From Kocuria rhizophila DC2201 (GTDB taxonomy: Bacteria > Actinomycetota > Actinomycetes > Actinomycetales > Micrococcaceae): a DNA stretch of 64,000 bases. Numbering within the stretch: the stretch's first letter is position 1; each line of letters opens with the position of its first letter. Made by a program: the position numbers and the translations under genes. Shown here in pieces: positions 14,783 to 64,000 of this stretch. The stretch lies in the NCBI RefSeq assembly GCF_000010285.1, contig NC_010617.1, forward strand, positions 1 to 64,000. Reading direction: 5' to 3'. The notes beneath the pieces were generated by a model. That model was not told where the DNA came from and ran no database searches. It worked only from the letters and a program-made list of their open reading frames with translations.

Positions 14783-14817
14783 CGTGGAGCCCACCCGGTT
14801 ACCGGGTGGGCTCCACG
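14783..14817 (+). terminator. Intrinsic terminator after cyclophilin gene
   Basis: A near-perfect hairpin of about 16 bp, CGTGGAGCCCACCCGG pairing with CCGGGTGGGCTCCACG around a short TTA loop. Confidence 0.85.
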
Positions 14818-24393: not shown

Positions 24394-24540
24394 GGCAGGT
24401 TCTCTTTTCGCCGTCGAAAGAAGGGTGCGCCGCCCGGCCCGGAACCCGGACGCACCCGCGCGTGTCCTGCCGAAAATACCCGACCGTAGGCTCGGGGTGG
24501 ACATTGCGTCCAGCATGCGACATGACCGGGTCCCGCAACG

Positions 24541-24582
24541 CAGCGCGCCCCGGACCGCTCGAGGGCGGTCCGGGGCGCGCTG
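24541..24582 (-). terminator. Strong terminator after the sugar porter gene
   Basis: A perfect 17-bp stem, CAGCGCGCCCCGGACCG pairing with CGGTCCGGGGCGCGCTG, around an eight-base loop, 17 bases beyond the end of the porter gene. Confidence 0.88.
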
Positions 24583-24598
24583 CGGCACGGGGAGGGAC

Positions 24599-28811: not shown

Positions 28812-28847
28812 ACGACGAGCCGGACCGTGAAAGGTCCGGCTCGTCGT
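28812..28847 (+). terminator. Terminator after PAP2 gene
   Basis: A perfect 15-bp stem, ACGACGAGCCGGACC pairing with GGTCCGGCTCGTCGT, around GTGAAA. The rest of the 345-base spacer 28757-29101 shows no gene or other recognisable element. Confidence 0.85.
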
Positions 28848-55424: not shown

Positions 55425-55460
55425 CGAACGCCCCTCCCCGGGCGAGGGGAGGGGCGTTCG
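55425..55460. terminator. Bidirectional terminator between convergent genes
   Basis: A perfect 15-bp stem, CGAACGCCCCTCCCC pairing with GGGGAGGGGCGTTCG, lies between the AbgT gene and the large membrane-protein gene. Confidence 0.87.
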
Positions 55461-55492: not shown

Positions 55493-58375
55493 TCAGTCGT
55501 TCGTCTTCACGGTGATCTTGTCCCCGGACACGGTCACCGTGCCGGAGGTGGAGATGCTCGTGGTGGTGTCCCGGTCCTTCCACTTGGCGGGCTTGTCCTC
55601 GTCCCACTGGTCGTTGTACTGGTAGTCGAACCGTGCCTCACCGGACTTCCTGGTGGTGAAGGTGGTCTCGCCTCCCAGGGAGGACACCGAGTAGGTGGGG
55701 TAGCGCTCGATGGTCCAGGAGGGGTTGCGGTAGTCCTCCTCGTCCCCGAAGATCGGATACCCGAACGCGCAGCCCTGCGGCTCGAACTCGGACTTCTTGG
55801 CGCACGTGTCCAGCGAGGCGTTGAGCTGCTTGGTGAGGTCCTGCTCGAGCGCCGGGGTGTAGGACTGGTCGAAGCTCATGGCGGAGCTCATGGGCTCGGA
55901 CCCGGCCCGGATCTCGGCCACCTGCTGACCGCCGTAGCTCACGTACTTGCTCGCGGAGTCGATGCCCACGGCGTAGTCACCGGGCAGCGCCGTGAACTGG
56001 GTGCTGTAGGACTGGTCCTGGGCGTCCACCGGCACCTTCTTGTCGTTGACGGTGAGCTCGCTGACGCCCGCCGGGACCTCCACGCTGAACGTCTGGTACA
56101 GCGGGATCCCCGCGGAGCCGTCCACGCGCCAGGATTTGAACAGTCCGTTGCGGGAGTCGCTGACCATGGGCACGTCCACGGGGGTGGTCACGCCGTCCTG
56201 GGTCACGGTGGCGCTCACGGTGGCGTGGTCGCCGTCGATGCGCGTGTCCTTGATCTCGTAGGAGGAGATCCGGTGCTGCGCGGCGCCGTACACCTCGTTC
56301 GTGAGCAGGGCGCGCTGGGCGGTGCTCACGTTCGGGTCCGCCACGTCCGCGACCGCGGAGGCCTTGCCGTCCCTGGCGGACTGCAGCAGGTCCTCGGCCT
56401 GGTTGTCCGGGCCGAACACGGTGCGGCTCAGGATGGAGAACACCACCGCGGCCACCACGCCCAGCAGGATCAGGGCGCCCACGACGACCGCGATCCACCG
56501 GATCCGCTTCTTCTTCGCGGGGTCCATGGGCGTGCGCTGCGGGGGCAGGCTCGCGGTGTGCTCGGCGTCGTCGTACGTGGGCAGCACGCGCGTCTGGTCG
56601 CCGGGCGCGGTGGCGTCCCGCTGGGCGCTCACGGTCTCCTGGGCAGGGTGCTGCGCGGACGACGCCGCTGCGTCACCTGCCGGGCCCGCGGCACCGGGCG
56701 CCGCGGCGTCGCCCTCCCGGACGGTGCCCTGGGCGGGAGCGGTGCGGGCGGCGGCCGCAGCATCCATCCCGGCGGCGGAGGCCACCACGGCGGCGCGGCC
56801 GCGGGCCCGGTCCGAACCGCGCAGCGCGCGAGTCAGGGGAGCGGGCAGGGAGTGCATGAAGGCGGGTGCCACGAAGCGCGCGAGCAGCTCGATGGCCGCG
56901 CCCCACAGCAGGAACACCAGGCAGGTCCACCCGGCCGGGCGCATGCTGAAGCCCGCACCCTGGGATCGGCTGGAGCCCTGCGCGGCGTAGCCGCTGACGG
57001 TGAGCAGCCACATGAGCAGCAGCCCCAGCAGGAAGTATGCGACGGGCAGCACGGCCCACGCGAACGGGTTGCGTGCCACCCGCTGGTCCACGGGGCGCAC
57101 GTGCGCCCACGCAATGGCCGCGCAGACCACGGACACGAGCGCCAGCAGGATGCACAGCACCACGGCCCACGCGGGCACGGTGCCCTCGGTCCACAGGTAG
57201 AACGCGTGGGAGCCGCCGGTCAGCTCCGTGAAGGAGACGGCCGCACCGCCCGCGGTCAGCGCGGAGAGCAGCGAGAGCACGAACAGCCAGCCCACCGCGA
57301 TCGGCAGCCAGAACAGGGCGGAGAACCCGGCCATGGCGCCGCCCTTGACGAACGCCCAGATCAGCAGGCCCAGCCCGGCCACGGCACCGAACACGCAGAA
57401 CTGCACCACCACGGGGCGAAGCACCTGCAGCACGCCCGGAGCGGTGCGTTCGGCGCCGATCACCACGCGGCCGGGGGCGGTCTGCGTGGAACGGGAGGCG
57501 AGTACGGAGGCGGTGGTCAGCAGCCCCACCATGAACAGCACCAGGAACAACCCCGGGCCCACCGCGGAGATCCGCACCTGGACGCTCGAGTAGAACACGG
57601 GGATGTCCAGGCGCAGCACGGTGATGGCGGTGACGATCAGTGCCAGGGCACCCCAAACCACACCGGCCACGGCGGCCATGACCCACTGCACGGCGCGGGT
57701 CTCCACGCGCGTGCGGGACGTGAGGGCGCGCGTGACGGACCACGCCGCCGCGATCCCGCAGGCCAGGGCGAAGTACTGCGGCACGGTAACGCCCGCGGTG
57801 CCGCCCTCGCCGCCGAAGCTCGCGATGACGCGCAGGGGCACCAGCGCCGCCATGGCTGCGAGCTGGAACGGGATGGAGAGGAACCACGCCATGCCGGAGA
57901 GGTCCGGGGCGGTGCCCGTGAAGTCGTTGATCTGCTCGTCCACCTGCTCCGTGAGGCTCCCGCTGGAGTCACCCGAGAGCGCGGCGCCCAGCACGGTGAG
58001 CACCAGGGCCAGCACGGTGCCGAGCACCATGCCCGCGTAGCCGGCCACACCGGCCACGGCGGGGACCCACCAGTGCCGGGGGGTCATGCTCGCGAGGGCG
58101 GCGGGCGGGGTGTACGCCGGGGCGGCCGCGGTCTGGGTGCCGGGTGCCGCCGTACCGGGGGCCGCAGCGTTGGGCGCTGCGGCGCCGGGTGTGCCACCCG
58201 GTGCTGCCCCGGGGGCCGCGGTGGACTCCTGGGCTGTGGGTCCCGTGGTGGAGGGCCCCGTGGTAGTGGCCGGGTCGACGGGGTGCTCCGCGTCGTCGCC
58301 GGCGGGCCCACCTCCGCTGCGGTGGTGCTCCGGTTCCCGGGACGCGCCCGCCGGATCGTGTGCCGAAGAAGGCAT
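55493..58375 (-). CDS. Large multi-pass membrane protein with extracytoplasmic domain
   Basis: A 960-residue protein of no recognised family. Residues 1-100 are a Pro/Gly/Ala/Thr-rich cytoplasmic stretch. About ten hydrophobic segments follow to residue 510. A low-complexity linker (515-615, with GACGACGCCGC at 56658-56668) leads to a further membrane helix (RIRWIAVVVGALILLGVVAA, near 620-640). The last 310 residues are probably extracytoplasmic, with two Cys (DTCAKK, QGCAFG) that could form a disulfide. The tail resembles stress-sensing or envelope proteins only in general composition. RBS GGGAGAGAAC precedes the ATG. Confidence 0.75.
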   Translation of the reverse strand: MPSSAHDPAGASREPEHHRSGGGPAGDDAEHPVDPATTTGPSTTGPTAQESTAAPGAAPGGTPGAAAPNAAAPGTAAPGTQTAAAPAYTPPAALASMTPRHWWVPAVAGVAGYAGMVLGTVLALVLTVLGAALSGDSSGSLTEQVDEQINDFTGTAPDLSGMAWFLSIPFQLAAMAALVPLRVIASFGGEGGTAGVTVPQYFALACGIAAAWSVTRALTSRTRVETRAVQWVMAAVAGVVWGALALIVTAITVLRLDIPVFYSSVQVRISAVGPGLFLVLFMVGLLTTASVLASRSTQTAPGRVVIGAERTAPGVLQVLRPVVVQFCVFGAVAGLGLLIWAFVKGGAMAGFSALFWLPIAVGWLFVLSLLSALTAGGAAVSFTELTGGSHAFYLWTEGTVPAWAVVLCILLALVSVVCAAIAWAHVRPVDQRVARNPFAWAVLPVAYFLLGLLLMWLLTVSGYAAQGSSRSQGAGFSMRPAGWTCLVFLLWGAAIELLARFVAPAFMHSLPAPLTRALRGSDRARGRAAVVASAAGMDAAAAARTAPAQGTVREGDAAAPGAAGPAGDAAASSAQHPAQETVSAQRDATAPGDQTRVLPTYDDAEHTASLPPQRTPMDPAKKKRIRWIAVVVGALILLGVVAAVVFSILSRTVFGPDNQAEDLLQSARDGKASAVADVADPNVSTAQRALLTNEVYGAAQHRISSYEIKDTRIDGDHATVSATVTQDGVTTPVDVPMVSDSRNGLFKSWRVDGSAGIPLYQTFSVEVPAGVSELTVNDKKVPVDAQDQSYSTQFTALPGDYAVGIDSASKYVSYGGQQVAEIRAGSEPMSSAMSFDQSYTPALEQDLTKQLNASLDTCAKKSEFEPQGCAFGYPIFGDEEDYRNPSWTIERYPTYSVSSLGGETTFTTRKSGEARFDYQYNDQWDEDKPAKWKDRDTTTSISTSGTVTVSGDKITVKTND

Positions 58376-58521
58376 GATGTTCTCTCCCCTGGATGTGCAG
58401 CCGATGCCCAGAATGAAACCTGAGCAATTCCTGAATATCAGAAGAGGAGTGCCAGGCCGGGGAGGACCTACCGGCAGGAGGGCATGTTTATGAATAAGTC
58501 ACTACATGGCGGGCCCACGGT

Positions 58522-59940
58522 TCACGCGGGGTGCGGCCCCTGCGAACCTGCGGGGTACTCCTGCAGCGGCGCGCACGTGTCGTAGGCGTGCTGGATGAGG
58601 TCGATGATCCGCCAGCCTTCCTCGGTGGCGTCCGCGCGCACGGTGAAGGTGGGGTCCCCGTCCAGGATCCAGCGCATCACGGAGCCGTACGCGGTGAGCC
58701 CGGGCTCCGGCACGCCGCTGGAGAGGGTCAGCCGGTTCATCCCGCGGGAGTCGAAGGGGCTGCCCACGTTCGCCTCCAGCTGCACGTGCTCTTCCTCGAA
58801 GCCCACGCTCAGCGCGTTGGGTGCGGTGGGGTGCGGCCAGCCCCGATACTCGTGCGGCGGGCGGCGGAAGGTCACGCGGATGTGCTGGGAGGGGTTGCCG
58901 ATCGCCTTGCCGGAGCGCAGCGTCACGGGCACCCCGTTCCAGCGCCAGGTGTCCACCTCCAGGGTCACCTGCACGAAGGTCTCGGTCTCCCGCTCCGGGT
59001 CCACGTCCTTCTCCTGCGCGTAGTCCGGGACGTCGTGCCCGCCGGTGGTGCCCGCGGTGTAGCGGCCGCGGACCACGGGGGTGATCCCGGGGTGCTCGGC
59101 GGCGTGCATGGTGGAATCCTCGTCCCACAGCCGGGTGGCACGAAGGATGTGGGCGGTGTTCGCGGGGACCTCCACGGGGTCGAAGCGGGAGGGCGGGTCC
59201 ATCATGGTCAGGGCCATGACCTGCAGCAGGTGGGACTGCAGCATGTCCCGGGCGGCACCCGTGGAGTCGTAGAACTCGCCGCGGCCCTCCAGCGCGAGGG
59301 TCTCATCGAAGACGATCTCGATGGACGCGATGTGCCGCCGGTCCCAGATGGGCTCGAACATCCGGTTGGCGAAGCGCAGTCCCACGATGTCCAGCACGCC
59401 GGGCATGCCCAGGAAGTGGTCCACGCGGAACGTGTGCTCCTCGTCCACCAGCTGCGCCACCTGGGCGTTGAGCGCCCGCGCGGAGTCCAGGTCCGTGCCC
59501 ACGGGCTTCTCCAGGGCGAGGTACAGGTCCTCGGGCAGCGCGTCCAGCTCGGCCAGGGCCGCGCACGCCTTCTTGGTGATCGCGGGCGCCAGCGCGAAGT
59601 ACAGGCACACGGGGCCCTCGACGTCGTCGAGCAGCTTCTCGAGGTCCGCTGCCTCGGTGACGTCGCACGAGACCCAGCGCGTGTTCTCCCGCGCGTGGTC
59701 CACGGCGGGGCCGGTGGTGTCCACGGACGAGAACGCCTTGGCGACGGTGTCCTCCCAGGTCTCCGCGCGCACGTCGTCGTCCGGGCCGAGCGGACCCGGG
59801 AAGTCGTCCCGGGCGGAGCCGATGACCGTGATCTCCCGCTCGGGCTGCATGGCCAGCAGCGAGCCCAGCCCCGGGAGCAGGAGGCGCGCGGTGAGGTCAC
59901 CGGAGGCGCCGAGAATCACAAGGGTCCTGATGTTGTCCAT
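58522..59940 (-). CDS. Divergent glucose-6-phosphate dehydrogenase
   Basis: A 472-residue G6PDH-family enzyme: GASGDLTARLLLPGL is the NADP loop, EKPVGTDLDSA a conserved loop, RVDHFLGMPGV the substrate motif, and the tail region has the usual TFRRPP. In standard enzymes the substrate motif is R-I-D-H-Y-L-G-K-E; here Tyr is Phe and Lys-Glu is Met-Pro. The NADP loop also lacks the usual Lys. The catalytic His is kept. It stands away from tal/opcA, so it is probably a paralogue with altered kinetics or substrate. The ATG at 59940 is set by TACCCT (59952-59947) six bases upstream. Confidence 0.85.
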   Translation of the reverse strand: MDNIRTLVILGASGDLTARLLLPGLGSLLAMQPEREITVIGSARDDFPGPLGPDDDVRAETWEDTVAKAFSSVDTTGPAVDHARENTRWVSCDVTEAADLEKLLDDVEGPVCLYFALAPAITKKACAALAELDALPEDLYLALEKPVGTDLDSARALNAQVAQLVDEEHTFRVDHFLGMPGVLDIVGLRFANRMFEPIWDRRHIASIEIVFDETLALEGRGEFYDSTGAARDMLQSHLLQVMALTMMDPPSRFDPVEVPANTAHILRATRLWDEDSTMHAAEHPGITPVVRGRYTAGTTGGHDVPDYAQEKDVDPERETETFVQVTLEVDTWRWNGVPVTLRSGKAIGNPSQHIRVTFRRPPHEYRGWPHPTAPNALSVGFEEEHVQLEANVGSPFDSRGMNRLTLSSGVPEPGLTAYGSVMRWILDGDPTFTVRADATEEGWRIIDLIQHAYDTCAPLQEYPAGSQGPHPA

Positions 59941-60043
59941 GGGATCAGGGTAGGTGGTGAGGTGGAATGCGGGGTCGCACACTCTTCAGGTCGCCGGCCT
60001 TGCGCAGCCCGACTCGAGTCAGCAGCGCCATGCCCTCCTGCAT

Positions 60044-60145
60044 CTAGGTAGAGGTCATCACGATCCCTGCGCCCAGGAGATCTGTCCCCATCAGTCCGCG
60101 CTCTTGGCTCTTGGTGTACACCCGGGCGTACTCAATCAGCTTCCC
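60044..60145 (-). pseudogene. Serine recombinase N-terminal remnant
   Basis: A 33-codon stretch reads GKLIEYARVYTKSQERGL and then GTDLLGAGIV before a stop. It matches the first residues of resolvase/invertase proteins (L-I-G-Y-A-R-V-S-T-x-x-Q...A-L-x-A-A-G). The catalytic Ser of Y-A-R-V-S-T is Tyr (TAC), and no catalytic domain follows. It is a dead fragment. The rest of the 59941-60483 spacer holds only the promoter of the next gene; 60146-60407 shows nothing recognisable. Confidence 0.6.
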
Positions 60146-60424
60146 CGTACTCCGAAACCACCTTCTGCCTATCCTGCAACCGACCATCAGTACCCCGACC
60201 GGGGCGACCGGCGGAGAGACAGGGCTACGAGACAGGGTGGTGCCCAACACTTCGGCACCGACTCTGGGGGGCATCCCGCGACGACGCACAACCCATCCCT
60301 TCAGAACTCCACCAAGGGGTCGGGTCCGCCCACAGCCAACGCGCAAGAACCACCGCAGGGTGAAGCTTGCTGCTACAAGTAATCATATCTGATGAAGCGC
60401 CGTGAAAACTGGCCACATGGCCAA

Positions 60425-60452
60425 TTGACACGACTTCATGGGTGTGTATAGT
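60425..60452 (+). promoter_or_regulatory. Consensus promoter of the secreted-protein cassette
   Basis: A -35 TTGACA (60425-60430) and -10 TATAGT (60447-60452) are 16 bp apart. This is the closest match to the sigma-70 consensus noted in the window. TGGCCACATGGCCA (near 60410-60423) just upstream is a near-palindrome and possible operator. RBS GAGGGG lies seven bases before the ATG. Confidence 0.75.
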
Positions 60453-60483
60453 TTCCGTCACATACCTAGCTTGAGGGGTCATA

Positions 60484-61371
60484 ATGCTTCTGAAGAACAT
60501 CGGCAAAGTAAAGATTTTGACTGCAGGAGCACTATCCTGCGCACTAGTCGCAGGGACTGGTTCGGCTGCCCTTGCGGAGCCTGGGCAGAGCAATCTCAAT
60601 GAATCAGAAGTCAAGGCCATGGAGCATGCAATCACCCAATCCTTGCCCACGGGCAAGCTTGCGGAAAACTCTGGCCTCTCTTCAGGGGCTGTTTCGAAAG
60701 ATTCACCTAACCAGATCAACCTTGACGGCGCATCTCTGTCAATCCCCCTCGACAGCAATTCAAAGCATGGCACCTCGTCAGATGATTCCCTGGTGGTGTC
60801 GGGAGATTCCACAGACTACATGTTCCGAGAAACTAAAGACGGGGCACAAGTTCTTTTCAAGATCGATTCCCCTAAGTCATCTCATGAAAAAACTTTCACA
60901 ATCTCAGGCGACAAAGAGCTCGTTTCATCTGAAGCCCTCGGCGCTGACACCGGGGAAGTTTTTGTGAAGAACTCAGATGGAAGCATGCATAGTTCGTTCG
61001 ATGCTCCGTGGGCCTACGACGCCAACGGCAACAGTGTGCCCACGCACTTCGAAGTGAGTGGTAATAAGCTGACGCAAGTTGTCGAACCAACTTCCGAGAC
61101 CGCCTACCCAATTGTTTCTGACCCCGATTGGGGAAAAATTGGGATGTGCGCGGGGACAATCGCAGGAAACGCGGCCCTGTACATCGTCCCTGGTGGAATT
61201 GTGGGAAAGCTCCTGATCAAGACGAAGTCTATTCGAAAAGCTGCAGAAATTCTTGTGAGGACTCTCAAAGCGAAAAGCTACAATGATAAGCTGAAGGCAT
61301 TGCGTTCGCTTGCCTTTGGGCTTGGCGCTGATCTCACTGGGATTGGAGCAATCGCAAAGGCGTGTGGGTAA
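60484..61371 (+). CDS. Secreted protein of unknown function, AT-rich codon use
   Basis: A 295-residue protein. A signal peptide (KILTAGALSCALVAGTGSAA, with cleavage after Leu-Ala) precedes a Ser/Asp/Lys-rich domain of beta character. Then comes AYPIVSDPDWGKIGM, a hinge of a kind seen in secreted actinobacterial proteins. The C-terminal 85 residues are hydrophobic and then strongly basic (NAALYIVPGGIVGKLLIKTK; SIRKAAEILVRTLKAKSYND), like a membrane-active domain. Codon use is far less GC-rich than the rest of the window, a sign of transfer. It overlaps a tiny membrane-protein gene by one base. A bacteriocin-like role is only a hypothesis. Confidence 0.75.
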   Translation: MLLKNIGKVKILTAGALSCALVAGTGSAALAEPGQSNLNESEVKAMEHAITQSLPTGKLAENSGLSSGAVSKDSPNQINLDGASLSIPLDSNSKHGTSSDDSLVVSGDSTDYMFRETKDGAQVLFKIDSPKSSHEKTFTISGDKELVSSEALGADTGEVFVKNSDGSMHSSFDAPWAYDANGNSVPTHFEVSGNKLTQVVEPTSETAYPIVSDPDWGKIGMCAGTIAGNAALYIVPGGIVGKLLIKTKSIRKAAEILVRTLKAKSYNDKLKALRSLAFGLGADLTGIGAIAKACG

Positions 61372-61544
61372 TGCGGACAAGCTCACTAGCAAGAGTGGCA
61401 ATAGCCCTACTTTTCGTTGGAATTATTTCTATAGGGCCATACTCCCTAATCCATAATGATTTCATCCTTGGAGCTGGTGCTGTAGGTTTCTTGATAGTCC
61501 TTGTTCTTCTAATCCCCACAGCTAAGAAGAGCAGTAGAGGTTAA
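61371..61544 (+). CDS. Two-helix 57-residue membrane protein, immunity-like
   Basis: The ATG shares its A with the TAA of the upstream secreted-protein gene, so it is translationally coupled to it. The product has two membrane helices (LARVAIALLFVGIISIGPYS and ILGAGAVGFLIVLVLLIP) and a short basic end (TAKKSSRG). Size, topology and coupling are those of small bacteriocin-immunity proteins, but no family match is recognised. Low GC like its partner. A very strong terminator starts three bases after the stop. Confidence 0.65.
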   Translation: MRTSSLARVAIALLFVGIISIGPYSLIHNDFILGAGAVGFLIVLVLLIPTAKKSSRG

Positions 61545-61547
61545 TTG

Positions 61548-61597
61548 TAGGTGGCGACCCCTCCCCTCGGAATTCCGAGGGGAGGGGTCGCCACCTA
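61548..61597 (+). terminator. 50-base perfect palindrome, probable cassette terminator
   Basis: TAGGTGGCGACCCCTCCCCT (61548-61567), continuing CGGAA, pairs with its exact inverse up to 61597, centred on GAATTC. The stem can be 23 bp with an AATT loop. It immediately follows the small membrane-protein gene. Confidence 0.8.
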
Positions 61598-61643
61598 TAG
61601 AACTCAAGGGCAAAGGAGCTCGCTGTGCTCACACTCAGTATTT

Positions 61644-61806
61644 CTGCCCTTCAGCTCTTCCTCAGTTCCTCGTGTGGTCTTGTTTTTGACGGGACTTACC
61701 GTTCAGCCTGGGAGGGAGTGGGGGAGCTGAAGGGCAGGGTGATGCCTTAGACGCTCCGGGGTACACCTCCGGTGGAGGAGGGTGTGTGGGGAACGTCTAA
61801 GGCATC
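61644..61806. repeat. Two adjoining long inverted repeats, no gene
   Basis: CTGCCCTTCAGCTC (61644-61657) is inverted exactly at 61724-61737, enclosing 66 bases. Three bases later GATGCCTTAGACG (61741-61753) is inverted exactly at 61794-61806, with an inner hairpin CCTCC-ggt-GGAGG in its loop. The 759-base spacer 61545-62303 has no convincing gene. These structures, the palindrome at 61548-61597 and the left part of an IS are all that is seen. They could be a MITE-like element or a structured RNA. Confidence 0.6.
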
Positions 61807-62303
61807 TTGAACACGTGCGGATCAGCCCGGTCGGTCGGTCGGTCGCATCGGTTGACCACCTCGTGGGTGGTTGAAGAAGGCCCACGGCATTACTCGTGGG
61901 CAGTGGCGGCATGTGCGCACAGCTCCGGTGCTCGTCTCGTGGCAGGGCTGCTGTCCACGAGCGGCACTGTAGGGCTTGGCACTCCTTCGCTGTCCAGGTC
62001 TTGCGATCCCTGGTGACGGCCCCCGGCTGTGCGCTCGGCAAAGGGAACCGGCTCTGACCCGGGGAGCACCGCTTCTCAGGCGGCTGGTGATGCTGGTCTA
62101 CGGTCGCATCTCAGACCGACACCAGGTCTTCCATTGCTGGTGGCTCCACTTGAAGCCGTTGGCGCGGGGCCTTCCGCTTTTAACCCGGATCGTTCACGAC
62201 GCCGCGGAGTGATCGGCGCGTAGAAGCACGGAAGCGCCTGCACAGCAGGGGAAACTTGTGACTGCGATGTCCCAAGTTCTCCGAGTTGGAAGGCGCTCCG
62301 TAG

Positions 62304-63275
62304 GTGAAGCGTACTTCGTGGTCGACGGGTCTGTCCGTGACGGCCGAAGGTGTCGGCGTGGTGGCTCACACGGGCAGCATTATGACCAGGCTCCTGGCCG
62401 ACCGGACCGGCCTGACCGACGAGCTGTTCAAGGCGATGACCCGCCGCAACTTTGTCCCTGGTCACGACCGGGGTCGTGTCCTTGCTGACGTGGCGGTGAT
62501 GCTCGCCGACGGTGGCGAGGCGATCGCCGCCATCGACGTGCTGCGGCACCAGGCCGGTGTCCTGGGCCCGGTCGCATCGGCCCCGACGGTGTGGCGCACG
62601 CTGAAGTCGATGACGGCCGGTCGACGGAATCAGATCGCGGCCGCCCGTGCTCGGGCCCGGCGCCACGTGTGGGCCCAACTGCCCGGCGGCATCCCGGCGT
62701 CCAAGGTCGCCGGGGTCGACCTCGCCGACGTCATCGTGCTAGACATCGACGCCACGATCGTGATCGCGCACAGCGAGAAGGAGAACGCGGCCGCCACGTT
62801 CAAGCGGCCCTTCGGCTACCACCCGATCGGGGTTTGGTGCGACAACACCAGTGAGTTCCTCGCCGCCAAGCCGCGGGCAGGCAACGCCGGCTCGAACACC
62901 ACTGTCGACCACATCGAAGTGCTGACCGAGGCGATCGCCCAGGTCCCCGGCACTCACCACAAGAAGTTGCTCATCCGCTCCGACGGCGCCGGTTCGTCCC
63001 ACGGGCTACTGGACTGGCTCACCGAACAGGGCACGGTCCGCGGCCGCAGCGTCGAGTGCGGCGTGGGATTCGCGATCACCGGGAAGCTCCGCGATGCCAT
63101 CGATCTGGTCCCGAAGAAGGTCTGGACCCCAGCACTCGATGCCGACGGCGGCGTTCGTGAGGGCGGCGACGTCGCCGAGCTGACCGGCCTCATCGACCCG
63201 AAGGTTCTCGCCAAGTGGCCAGCCGGGATGCGGGTGATCGTGCGCCGCGAACGCCCCAACCCCGGGCCAACCTGA
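62304..63275 (+). pseudogene. IS1380 family transposase, N-terminal part, truncated by deletion
   Basis: A 323-residue frame with the actinobacterial IS1380 pattern. It has a GLTDELFKAM N-terminal region, the first DDE acidic residue in VIVLDIDATIVIAHSEKE, then FKRPFGYHPIGVWCDNT and LLIRSDGAGSSHGLLDWL with a second Asp. It reads normally to RVIVRRERPNPG, then jumps to ANLTAWTRLLGY in another frame. The intervening segment of very roughly 80-100 residues, which normally carries the last acidic catalytic residue, is missing. The GTG at 62304 starts the homology. The enzyme should be inactive. Confidence 0.85.
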
Positions 63276-63487
63276 CCGCGTGGACCCGCCTGCTCGGCTA
63301 CATCGGCGACGCCGCCACGTTGGCAACCTGCGAGCCGAAGGCGTTGCGCTACCGCTTCTTCCACGTGCTCGCCCGACTCGCTCACAGCGCACGCCGACGT
63401 CGCCTCAGGATTCCGGAGTCGTGGCCCTGGGCAGCCGCGATCGTCGCGGTCTTCGCGAACATCGCCGCCATCCCGCAACAGGCCTGA
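63276..63487 (+). pseudogene. IS1380 family transposase, C-terminal fragment
   Basis: Out of frame with the preceding part, this stretch encodes the family's typical C-terminus: ANLTAWTRLLGYIGD (starting just upstream, near 63269), EPKALRYRFFHVLARL, RRRRLRIPESWPW and a final FANIAAIPQQ before the stop. With the upstream part it shows that one deletion plus frameshift inactivated an otherwise little-decayed transposase, so the event is probably recent. Confidence 0.82.
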
Positions 63488-63554
63488 CCTGGCCCGTCCG
63501 CCCCCGATCACACGGCTCCGACACGGTCCCGACCGCCGTCATGAAAGACCGGGG

Positions 63555-64000
63555 CTAGCCCTGGGCCTCGCCGAGGCGCGCTTCGGGTGTGAGCTCGGCG
63601 CGGAGACCGCCGCCGGTCGCAGCCCGTGCAAGAGCGCGACCCAGCGCAGGTGCCTGCTTGAACAAATTGTGACCGGCCACGAAGAAGACAGAGCCTGCCT
63701 CCCACACGGCCACGCCGTCCTCACTCCACGGGAGGTCGGTCACCCAGCAGTGGAGGAAGTCGCGCGGCTCTGGGTGGAGACCGGGCAGCGCCCGTGTCAC
63801 GTATTCGCGTGCGCGTTCGTCCAGCGATCGAATCGCCGCCGGGTCGATGAAAGTTCCGTCGTCGCGGACGCCGACGGTGTCGCTGAGTCCGACCGAATAG
63901 CTGCTGTTGCCCGGTAGCGGTGTCGCGTAGACGCCGACTTCGCCGAAGACGCCGCTGCTGTCCTGCAGGCACGCGACTCGTGCCGGGGCGGCGGCTTTCA
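63555..64000 (-). CDS. FAD-dependent oxidoreductase (DAO type), C-terminal part, runs off the window
   Basis: The last 148 codons of a D-amino-acid-oxidase/sarcosine-oxidase-like flavoprotein. The end of the catalytic domain shows HCWVTDLPWSEDGVAVWEAG and the conserved FAD-site loop VFFVAGHNLFKQAPALG, the equivalent of G-H-G-F-K. Codons such as CGA, ACA and CTA are commoner than in the host genes, suggesting foreign origin. The stop TAG lies within the candidate right end of the neighbouring IS, so the natural C-terminus may have been trimmed. The start is beyond base 64000. Confidence 0.75.
   Translation of the reverse strand, partial: KAAAPARVACLQDSSGVFGEVGVYATPLPGNSSYSVGLSDTVGVRDDGTFIDPAAIRSLDERAREYVTRALPGLHPEPRDFLHCWVTDLPWSEDGVAVWEAGSVFFVAGHNLFKQAPALGRALARAATGGGLRAELTPEARLGEAQG

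Follow-up and report, generated by a model that had tools for sequence, protein, structure and literature searches.

A horizontally acquired cassette in Kocuria rhizophila with a predicted closticin 574-type bacteriocin precursor and a candidate immunity gene

Results

A two-gene cassette of foreign composition

Two forward-strand genes, gene 1 (60484-61371, 295 aa) and gene 2 (61371-61544, 57 aa), lie near the right end of the 64,000-nucleotide stretch of Kocuria rhizophila DC2201 DNA analysed here (the window). They share one base within the sequence TAATG, as the overlapping stop and start codons in the first-pass annotation of this DNA had implied. The consensus promoter proposed in the same annotation proved to be a near-consensus one: the sequence TTGACA-16-TATAGT (60425-60452, forward strand) has 11 of 12 consensus matches, and a promoter scan of positions 60200-61700 returned 2 sites, where shuffled sequences averaged 0.7. 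A ribosome-binding-site-like GAGGGG, recognised from the sequence, is found on the same strand at 60473-60478, 5 nt 5' of the ATG of gene 1. Past the end of gene 2 is a perfect palindrome of 50 nt (61548-61597, forward strand), the longest in the window (the next measures 18 nt) and present in a single copy in the genome, a contig of 2,697,540 bases. As RNA it has a folding energy of -58.6 kcal/mol (z -10.8). This element had been described as the operon's own palindromic terminator. Its perfection stands, and it is unique in the genome; it lacks a T-run, however, and a terminator scan of the region did not list it, so that its action as a U-less operon terminator is plausible. Rfam and tRNA scans of the cassette region were both empty. 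Other long perfect hairpins with small loops occur in the window at 24539-24584, 14783-14817, 55425-55460 and 28812-28847, and are perhaps the usual terminators of this genome.

The G+C content is 51% in gene 1 and 43% in gene 2, against 70% for the whole window, and the corresponding GC3 values are 0.54 and 0.34, against 0.96 in the neighbouring zwf gene; the low G+C content and host-unlike codon usage reported earlier are thus borne out. So is the presence of mobile-element debris on both sides. To the left, a reverse-strand remnant (60042-60235) resembles, by eye, the 5' end of a serine recombinase gene and is 73-76% identical to stretches in four other genomes of the genus (loci L115, L116, L117 and L120). 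To the right, the stretch 61608-62168 is 87% identical to small contigs from two other genomes of the genus, and is followed by a partial transposase gene (62304-63275, forward strand; DDE_Tnp_1_4, Pfam E=3.5e-32, profile positions 10-303 of 435). The two genomes are among the four with the recombinase-like stretch, and the matching contigs carry that stretch themselves, together with an ORF that looks, by eye, like a relaxase gene.

When 27 genomes of the genus (the present one included) were searched at the DNA level, some match was obtained in 25, and the zwf side is conserved (92% identity to genome G022 up to base 60048). In none of the 26 other genomes, each scored for 11 candidates, was there a match to the cassette itself (about 60238-61607). 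Nor was a clean empty site recognised: positions 60048-82000 have no stretch longer than 150 bases in common with the 13.7 kb that follow zwf in G022. Judged from its sequence, the cassette is foreign to this genome and horizontally acquired. It probably arrived on a plasmid-like element whose decayed remains lie beside zwf; such an element is the simplest reading of the flanks, and it is from them that we infer a plasmid origin.

A locus of this kind might also be silent: a formerly active bacteriocin that has persisted by chance in the remains of a mobile element and no longer has a function. The broken pieces all around it would fit such a history, as would the restriction of the DNA match to one genome out of 27 in the genus. 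Nevertheless, both ORFs, the promoter-like site, the ribosome site and the overlap are all present, as are both cysteines and the boundary motif described below, and we consider a silent cassette very improbable.

The gene 1 product: signal peptide and pro-domain

The gene 1 translation opens with an apparent signal peptide (residues 1-31; 60484-60576, forward strand), identified by eye from its AXA-type end, ALA/EP. It continues with a region that we call the pro-domain, or pre-toxin domain (residues 32-213; 60577-61122, forward strand), which is defined by homology and by a boundary motif and ends with YPIVSD before a proline. The remaining 82 residues (214-295; 61123-61368, forward strand) constitute the predicted mature bacteriocin. 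They bear a net charge of +9 and contain two cysteines, Cys222 and Cys294, whereas the net charge of the pro-domain is -16; these values agree with the hydrophobic and cationic tail that had been pointed out previously. AlphaFold models were poor (mean pLDDT 39 for the full-length protein and 48 for its last 82 residues), which counts against the bacteriocin reading; at this low confidence the pro-domain was modelled with strands and the C-terminal part with four helices.

Neither gene product gave a Pfam, NCBIfam or PADLOC family above cut-off (for PADLOC, no match at E<=1). In PHROGs, gene 1 reached only E=0.076 and gene 2 had no match, and a sequence search of the PDB with the gene 1 protein was negative. 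In those relatives of gene 1 that were scanned, too, the pro-domain matched no Pfam or NCBIfam family above cut-off. The initial statement that no family is recognised is therefore true of profile libraries, but not of sequence searches, in which pro-domain relatives were found in 29 of 197 other genomes (198 searched, including the present one). The 39 homologous loci have in common a pro-domain ending in [FY]P..xDP, to which several kinds of C-terminal end are joined, and 29 of the 39 matches to the gene 1 protein stop between residues 214 and 229. An Asp-Pro boundary is present in 37 of the 39 homologues, namely in 35 of the 36 with a WAxD motif and in L013 and L032; the exceptions are L030 and L024, the latter a frame with an internal stop. 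A pro-domain profile run across the phylum matched 19 of 395 other genomes (396 sampled with the present one). Many of these matches are inside open frames longer than 1200 aa, which suggests that the pro-domain may be an extracellular domain of a general kind and not one peculiar to weapons. A scan of public contigs with the pro-domain returned one viral contig.

The C-terminal domain is of the closticin type

Among phage records, the best match to gene 1 is gp25 of Paenibacillus phage BN12 (L046), annotated as 'putative closticin', which aligns with residues 117-295 at 33.7% identity (E=1e-24), that is, over the end of the pro-domain and the C-terminus. The resemblance extends to gene order, gp25 being followed by gp24, a 120-aa ORF with predicted membrane helices; unlike gene 1, gp25 is phage-borne, and its ORF as annotated (219 aa) begins within the pro-domain. 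With the C-terminus alone as query, in a six-sequence set searched by blastp with composition correction off, BN12 was matched at 2e-10 and L035 at 3e-9. L035, from a genome of the same taxonomic order, is a 216-residue open frame with a closticin-type end and a shorter leader. A profile was then built from six closticin-type C-termini, excluding gene 1. It scored the gene 1 protein at 28.1 bits, compared with 10.1 bits for the best of 2000 shuffles of the same sequence and 9.7 bits for the best of the C-termini of the 38 homologues outside the profile. A profile of three members only (BN12, L035 and a Priestia protein described below) gave 22.3 bits for gene 1, 29.8 bits for L004 and 12.2 bits for the best shuffle.

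In 396 genomes of the order, the C-terminal domain used as a single query found five weak matches besides itself, of which L035 was judged real by eye. L034, L037 and L038, which lie in membrane proteins with several helices and no apparent relationship, were dropped on inspection, as was L036, part of a 1509-aa open frame. Of the 395 other genomes sampled across the phylum, 2 gave a match to the C-terminal profile, one of them partial, which counts against the bacteriocin reading. Public contigs were scanned with profiles as well: three scans turned up no closticin-type C-terminus, and a fourth yielded six Streptomyces loci. Clostridium tyrobutyricum was not recovered. No match resulted from a plasmid search with the C-terminus of L035. 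From these sequence comparisons the C-terminal end of gene 1 is assigned to the closticin type, the comparison being with BN12 'putative closticin' and its relatives; the connection to closticin 574 itself passes through a GenBank annotation and published accounts, a point against the bacteriocin reading.

Among the ORFs of positions 56000-64000, the neighbours of the cassette are zwf, mobile debris and the transposase, with no adjacent modification enzyme or dedicated exporter. Bacteriocins of the closticin 574 type are likewise not known to have adjacent genes of these two kinds. According to passages of PMC10888436, the closticin 574 of Clostridium tyrobutyricum ADRIAT 932 is made as a pre-protein of 309 aa with a probable signal peptide of 27 aa; processing, most probably extracellular, yields an antimicrobial peptide of 82 aa. 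The gene 1 protein shares with it a length of about 300 aa, a general signal peptide, a long pro-region and a C-terminal part of 82 aa. It differs in belonging to another phylum and in the 57-aa two-helix partner gene seen here; this comparison is with the published description of closticin 574. The same passages deal with a closticin-like bacteriocin, CLB, of Bacillus altitudinis ECC22, for which maturation genes seem absent. The cloning primer for its predicted mature form starts with PDWSKI, where gene 1 has PDWGKI (the comparison is confined to these primer-derived letters), and its length is given as 83 aa, against 82 aa here. The cleavage predicted between D213 and P214 in the gene 1 protein agrees with this primer-defined start. 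Unlike what is predicted for the gene 1 peptide, CLB made in a cell-free system was inactive in the test used, two indicator strains not being inhibited (PMC10888436, same passages), which counts against the bacteriocin reading. Closticin is also touched upon in parts of PMC11322243, PMC9341999, PMC3930689 and PMC12874462.

The inactivity of CLB in that test would suit a role other than antibacterial, in which gene 1 encoded a secreted envelope protein or a signalling peptide with the small protein as its partner, and so would the matches of the pro-domain to parts of very large, extracellular-looking proteins. The toxin domains among the exchangeable ends of the pro-domain (see below) and the carriage of relatives by phages or plasmids argue instead for conflict functions, and we rate a non-antibacterial role as very improbable, a shade below a silent cassette.

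Leaders and C-terminal ends are exchanged

The closticin-type end is also found on Streptomyces proteins of about 900 aa (L039, from a plasmid, and L048-L053). Like gene 1, these proteins and L040, a shorter Streptomyces protein annotated at 354 aa, combine the same pro-domain with the closticin-type end; the frames of about 900 aa are unlike the 295-aa gene 1 protein in length. L039 is annotated as a DNRLRE protein, and L049 was scored with a DNRLRE domain in front. In all six of L048-L053, an ORF of 109-115 aa begins 11-15 nt downstream. A 10.8-kb Priestia plasmid encodes a 187-aa precursor with a closticin-type end. A longer variant seems, from a weak match to the Priestia protein (E=6e-4), to be present on plasmid pBS32 of Bacillus subtilis NCIB 3610, in a hypothetical protein of 207 aa (L123:1411-2034).

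Conversely, the same pro-domain precedes a TNT end (Pfam E=2.6e-19, above cut-off), a DUF4258-like end (E=4.5e-4, below the Pfam cut-off), followed by a DUF2283 gene at 1.6e-10, and an EndoU-like end (E=8.4e-4, below the Pfam cut-off). These ends, with DUF2283 after the DUF4258-like one, are consistent with weapons plus immunity. Since the closticin-type end occurs on other leaders and other ends occur on the pro-domain, leader and toxin are, from the sequences, exchanged, as in polymorphic toxins. Parts of a survey of polymorphic toxin systems (Zhang et al. 2012, PMC3482391) describe a constant leader or pre-toxin domain, a variable C-terminal toxin and an adjacent immunity gene. The present loci are alike in the first two and have a candidate for the third in the membrane ORFs described below; they differ in that many of their ends, instead of recognised enzymes, are short peptides that are cationic or Cys-rich. 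The pro-domain of gene 1 was not found among the pre-toxin domains in those parts of the survey.

The likeness raises the alternative of a polymorphic cell-surface or contact-delivered toxin, whose pro-domain would serve trafficking or presentation and whose C-terminal domain would be freed only at the target. The occurrence of the pro-domain in large DNRLRE/RHS-like proteins speaks for it, and so do the TNT, EndoU-like and DUF4258-like ends, a combination typical of polymorphic toxins. A weak lipoprotein option is offered by Cys19 of the signal peptide, but its surroundings, judged by eye, fit a lipobox poorly. The gene 1 protein is moreover short and shows neither a recognised repeat nor a cell-wall anchor or secretion-system domain, and closticin 574 is described in passages of PMC10888436 as an 82-aa peptide released after secretion. 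Contact delivery is thus held to be unlikely, though likelier than a silent cassette.

Small membrane ORFs follow the pro-domain genes

The translation of gene 2 has two hydropathy peaks (2.28 and 2.71), indicating two predicted membrane helices. A type II toxin-antitoxin module consists of two cytoplasmic proteins, the antitoxin neutralising the toxin within the same cell; it was rejected here in view of the signal peptide recognised by eye in gene 1 and of the two predicted membrane helices of gene 2. No homologue of gene 2 was detected in the 197 other genomes at E<=0.01, which counts against a bacteriocin with its immunity protein. The assignment of gene 2 as a candidate immunity protein therefore rests on its position and membrane character.

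Position was examined at the 39 pro-domain loci by looking for ORFs of 45-150 aa that start between -25 and +100 nt of the stop codon and contain helices by a simple hydropathy rule. The controls were 89 non-overlapping ORFs of at least 150 aa from ten 20-kb stretches, nine around homologues in other genomes and one from elsewhere in the present genome; excluded were ORFs less than 600 bases from an end and, in the nine, those lying within 2.5 kb of the centre. A small ORF with at least two predicted helices follows 22 of the 39 pro-domain genes but only 1 of the 89 control ORFs (Fisher p=3e-13, for ORFs defined mechanically rather than called as genes, and with related loci that are not independent). 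When one helix is accepted, the counts become 28 of 39 and 5 of 89. The partners of ten closticin-type relatives that were measured, a set excluding those of L048, L049 and L053, have at least one predicted helix in every case and at least two in 7. As to the recurrence of the pair in other genomes, which the first-pass annotation had named as a check, the gene 2 sequence recurs in 0 of 197, and what recurs is a membrane ORF in the same position.

The order is not universal, which counts against the immunity reading: 17 of the 39 homologues have no two-helix ORF by the above definition, and 11 have not even a one-helix ORF. Among these 11, L005, L006, L012 and L021 have nuclease-like ends, recognised by Pfam or by eye, and are followed by other ORFs; in L025 a two-helix ORF starts 216 nt downstream; L059, L060 and L062 are frames cut short; and L055, L057 and L058 make up the remainder.

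Discussion

Taken together, the homology to BN12 gp25, the independent profile test and the recurring order of a precursor followed by a membrane ORF make it probable, on sequence evidence, that the cassette encodes a secreted bacteriocin of the closticin 574 type together with its immunity protein, the antibacterial activity being a prediction. The first-pass annotation had suggested a bacteriocin or toxin with immunity, and this part of it has gained support (28.1 against 10.1 bits; 22 of 39 against 1 of 89); its further suggestion of an undescribed kind of system is withdrawn, closticin 574 having already been published.

According to the model that we favour, the gene 1 protein would be exported via the general Sec route, and its acidic pro-domain (residues 32-213) would act as a chaperone that masks the basic C-terminal domain, keeping it soluble and inactive. 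Cleavage at or near D213/P214 would free an 82-residue, helical, disulfide-linked cationic peptide, which would then insert into the membrane of related Gram-positive cells and depolarise or perforate it. The product of gene 2, translationally coupled to gene 1 and residing in the membrane of the producer, would block the peptide. Asp-Pro self-cleavage occurs in other proteins; that it takes place in the gene 1 protein is a guess, prompted by the nearly invariant Asp-Pro.

Two elements appear to be new: the presence of a closticin-type precursor in Kocuria, and a polymorphic pre-toxin domain, without Pfam or NCBIfam match, that ends at a nearly invariant Asp-Pro, the predicted processing point. 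Among the matches listed in a search of the open literature, with subscription papers outside its scope, there was neither a closticin-type precursor in Kocuria nor a polymorphic set defined by this pro-domain. The little-studied clostridial closticin 574 would thereby be linked to a large, apparently unnamed set of secreted actinobacterial precursors, most of which have a possible immunity gene directly after them; the leader region of gene 1 is common to many secreted bacterial proteins resembling weapons. The combination of pro-domain, Asp-Pro boundary and small membrane ORF could serve as a genome-mining rule for new antibacterial peptides, and raises the question of how one pro-domain holds and releases unrelated toxins. 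It is tentatively conceivable, though we lean slightly against it, that the pro-domain marks a class of small polymorphic weapons, Sec-secreted, widespread and so far undescribed, which is found mainly in actinobacteria but extends to a phage of Bacillota and in which one leader serves many unrelated peptides and enzymes and Asp-Pro is a universal, possibly self-cleaving, release site.

Other loci

Several loci deserve separate mention. The 207-aa protein of pBS32 (L123), which would make a handy laboratory model, is encoded near the genes for an LXG toxin and the matching immunity protein. On plasmid pCM2_1101 of Clavibacter capsici (L042:2468-3530), the pro-domain with the DUF4258-like end is followed by the DUF2283 gene, a probable pair of secreted toxin and immunity. 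A plasmid of Rhodococcus sp. H-CA8f (L041:1682-4366) has the pro-domain inside an 894-aa protein ending in the TNT domain. A longer C-terminal type of about 110-130 aa (L020, L032, L055 and L081) resembles, by eye, an extended closticin-type relative; L020, L032 and L055 fail the closticin-type profile, at 8.5-9.7 bits. In Microbacterium phage Min1 (gp64-gp65; L047:2234-3290), the pro-domain is joined to a different, cysteine-containing end and followed by a hydrophobic ORF of 61 aa. This end belongs to a second recurrent C-terminal type, shared with L015, L017, L018, L026 and L029, which has at least four cysteines, a motif like [FW]-[NDT]-[KR]-x-E-T (by eye) and a small ORF after each gene, and which is possibly another peptide family.
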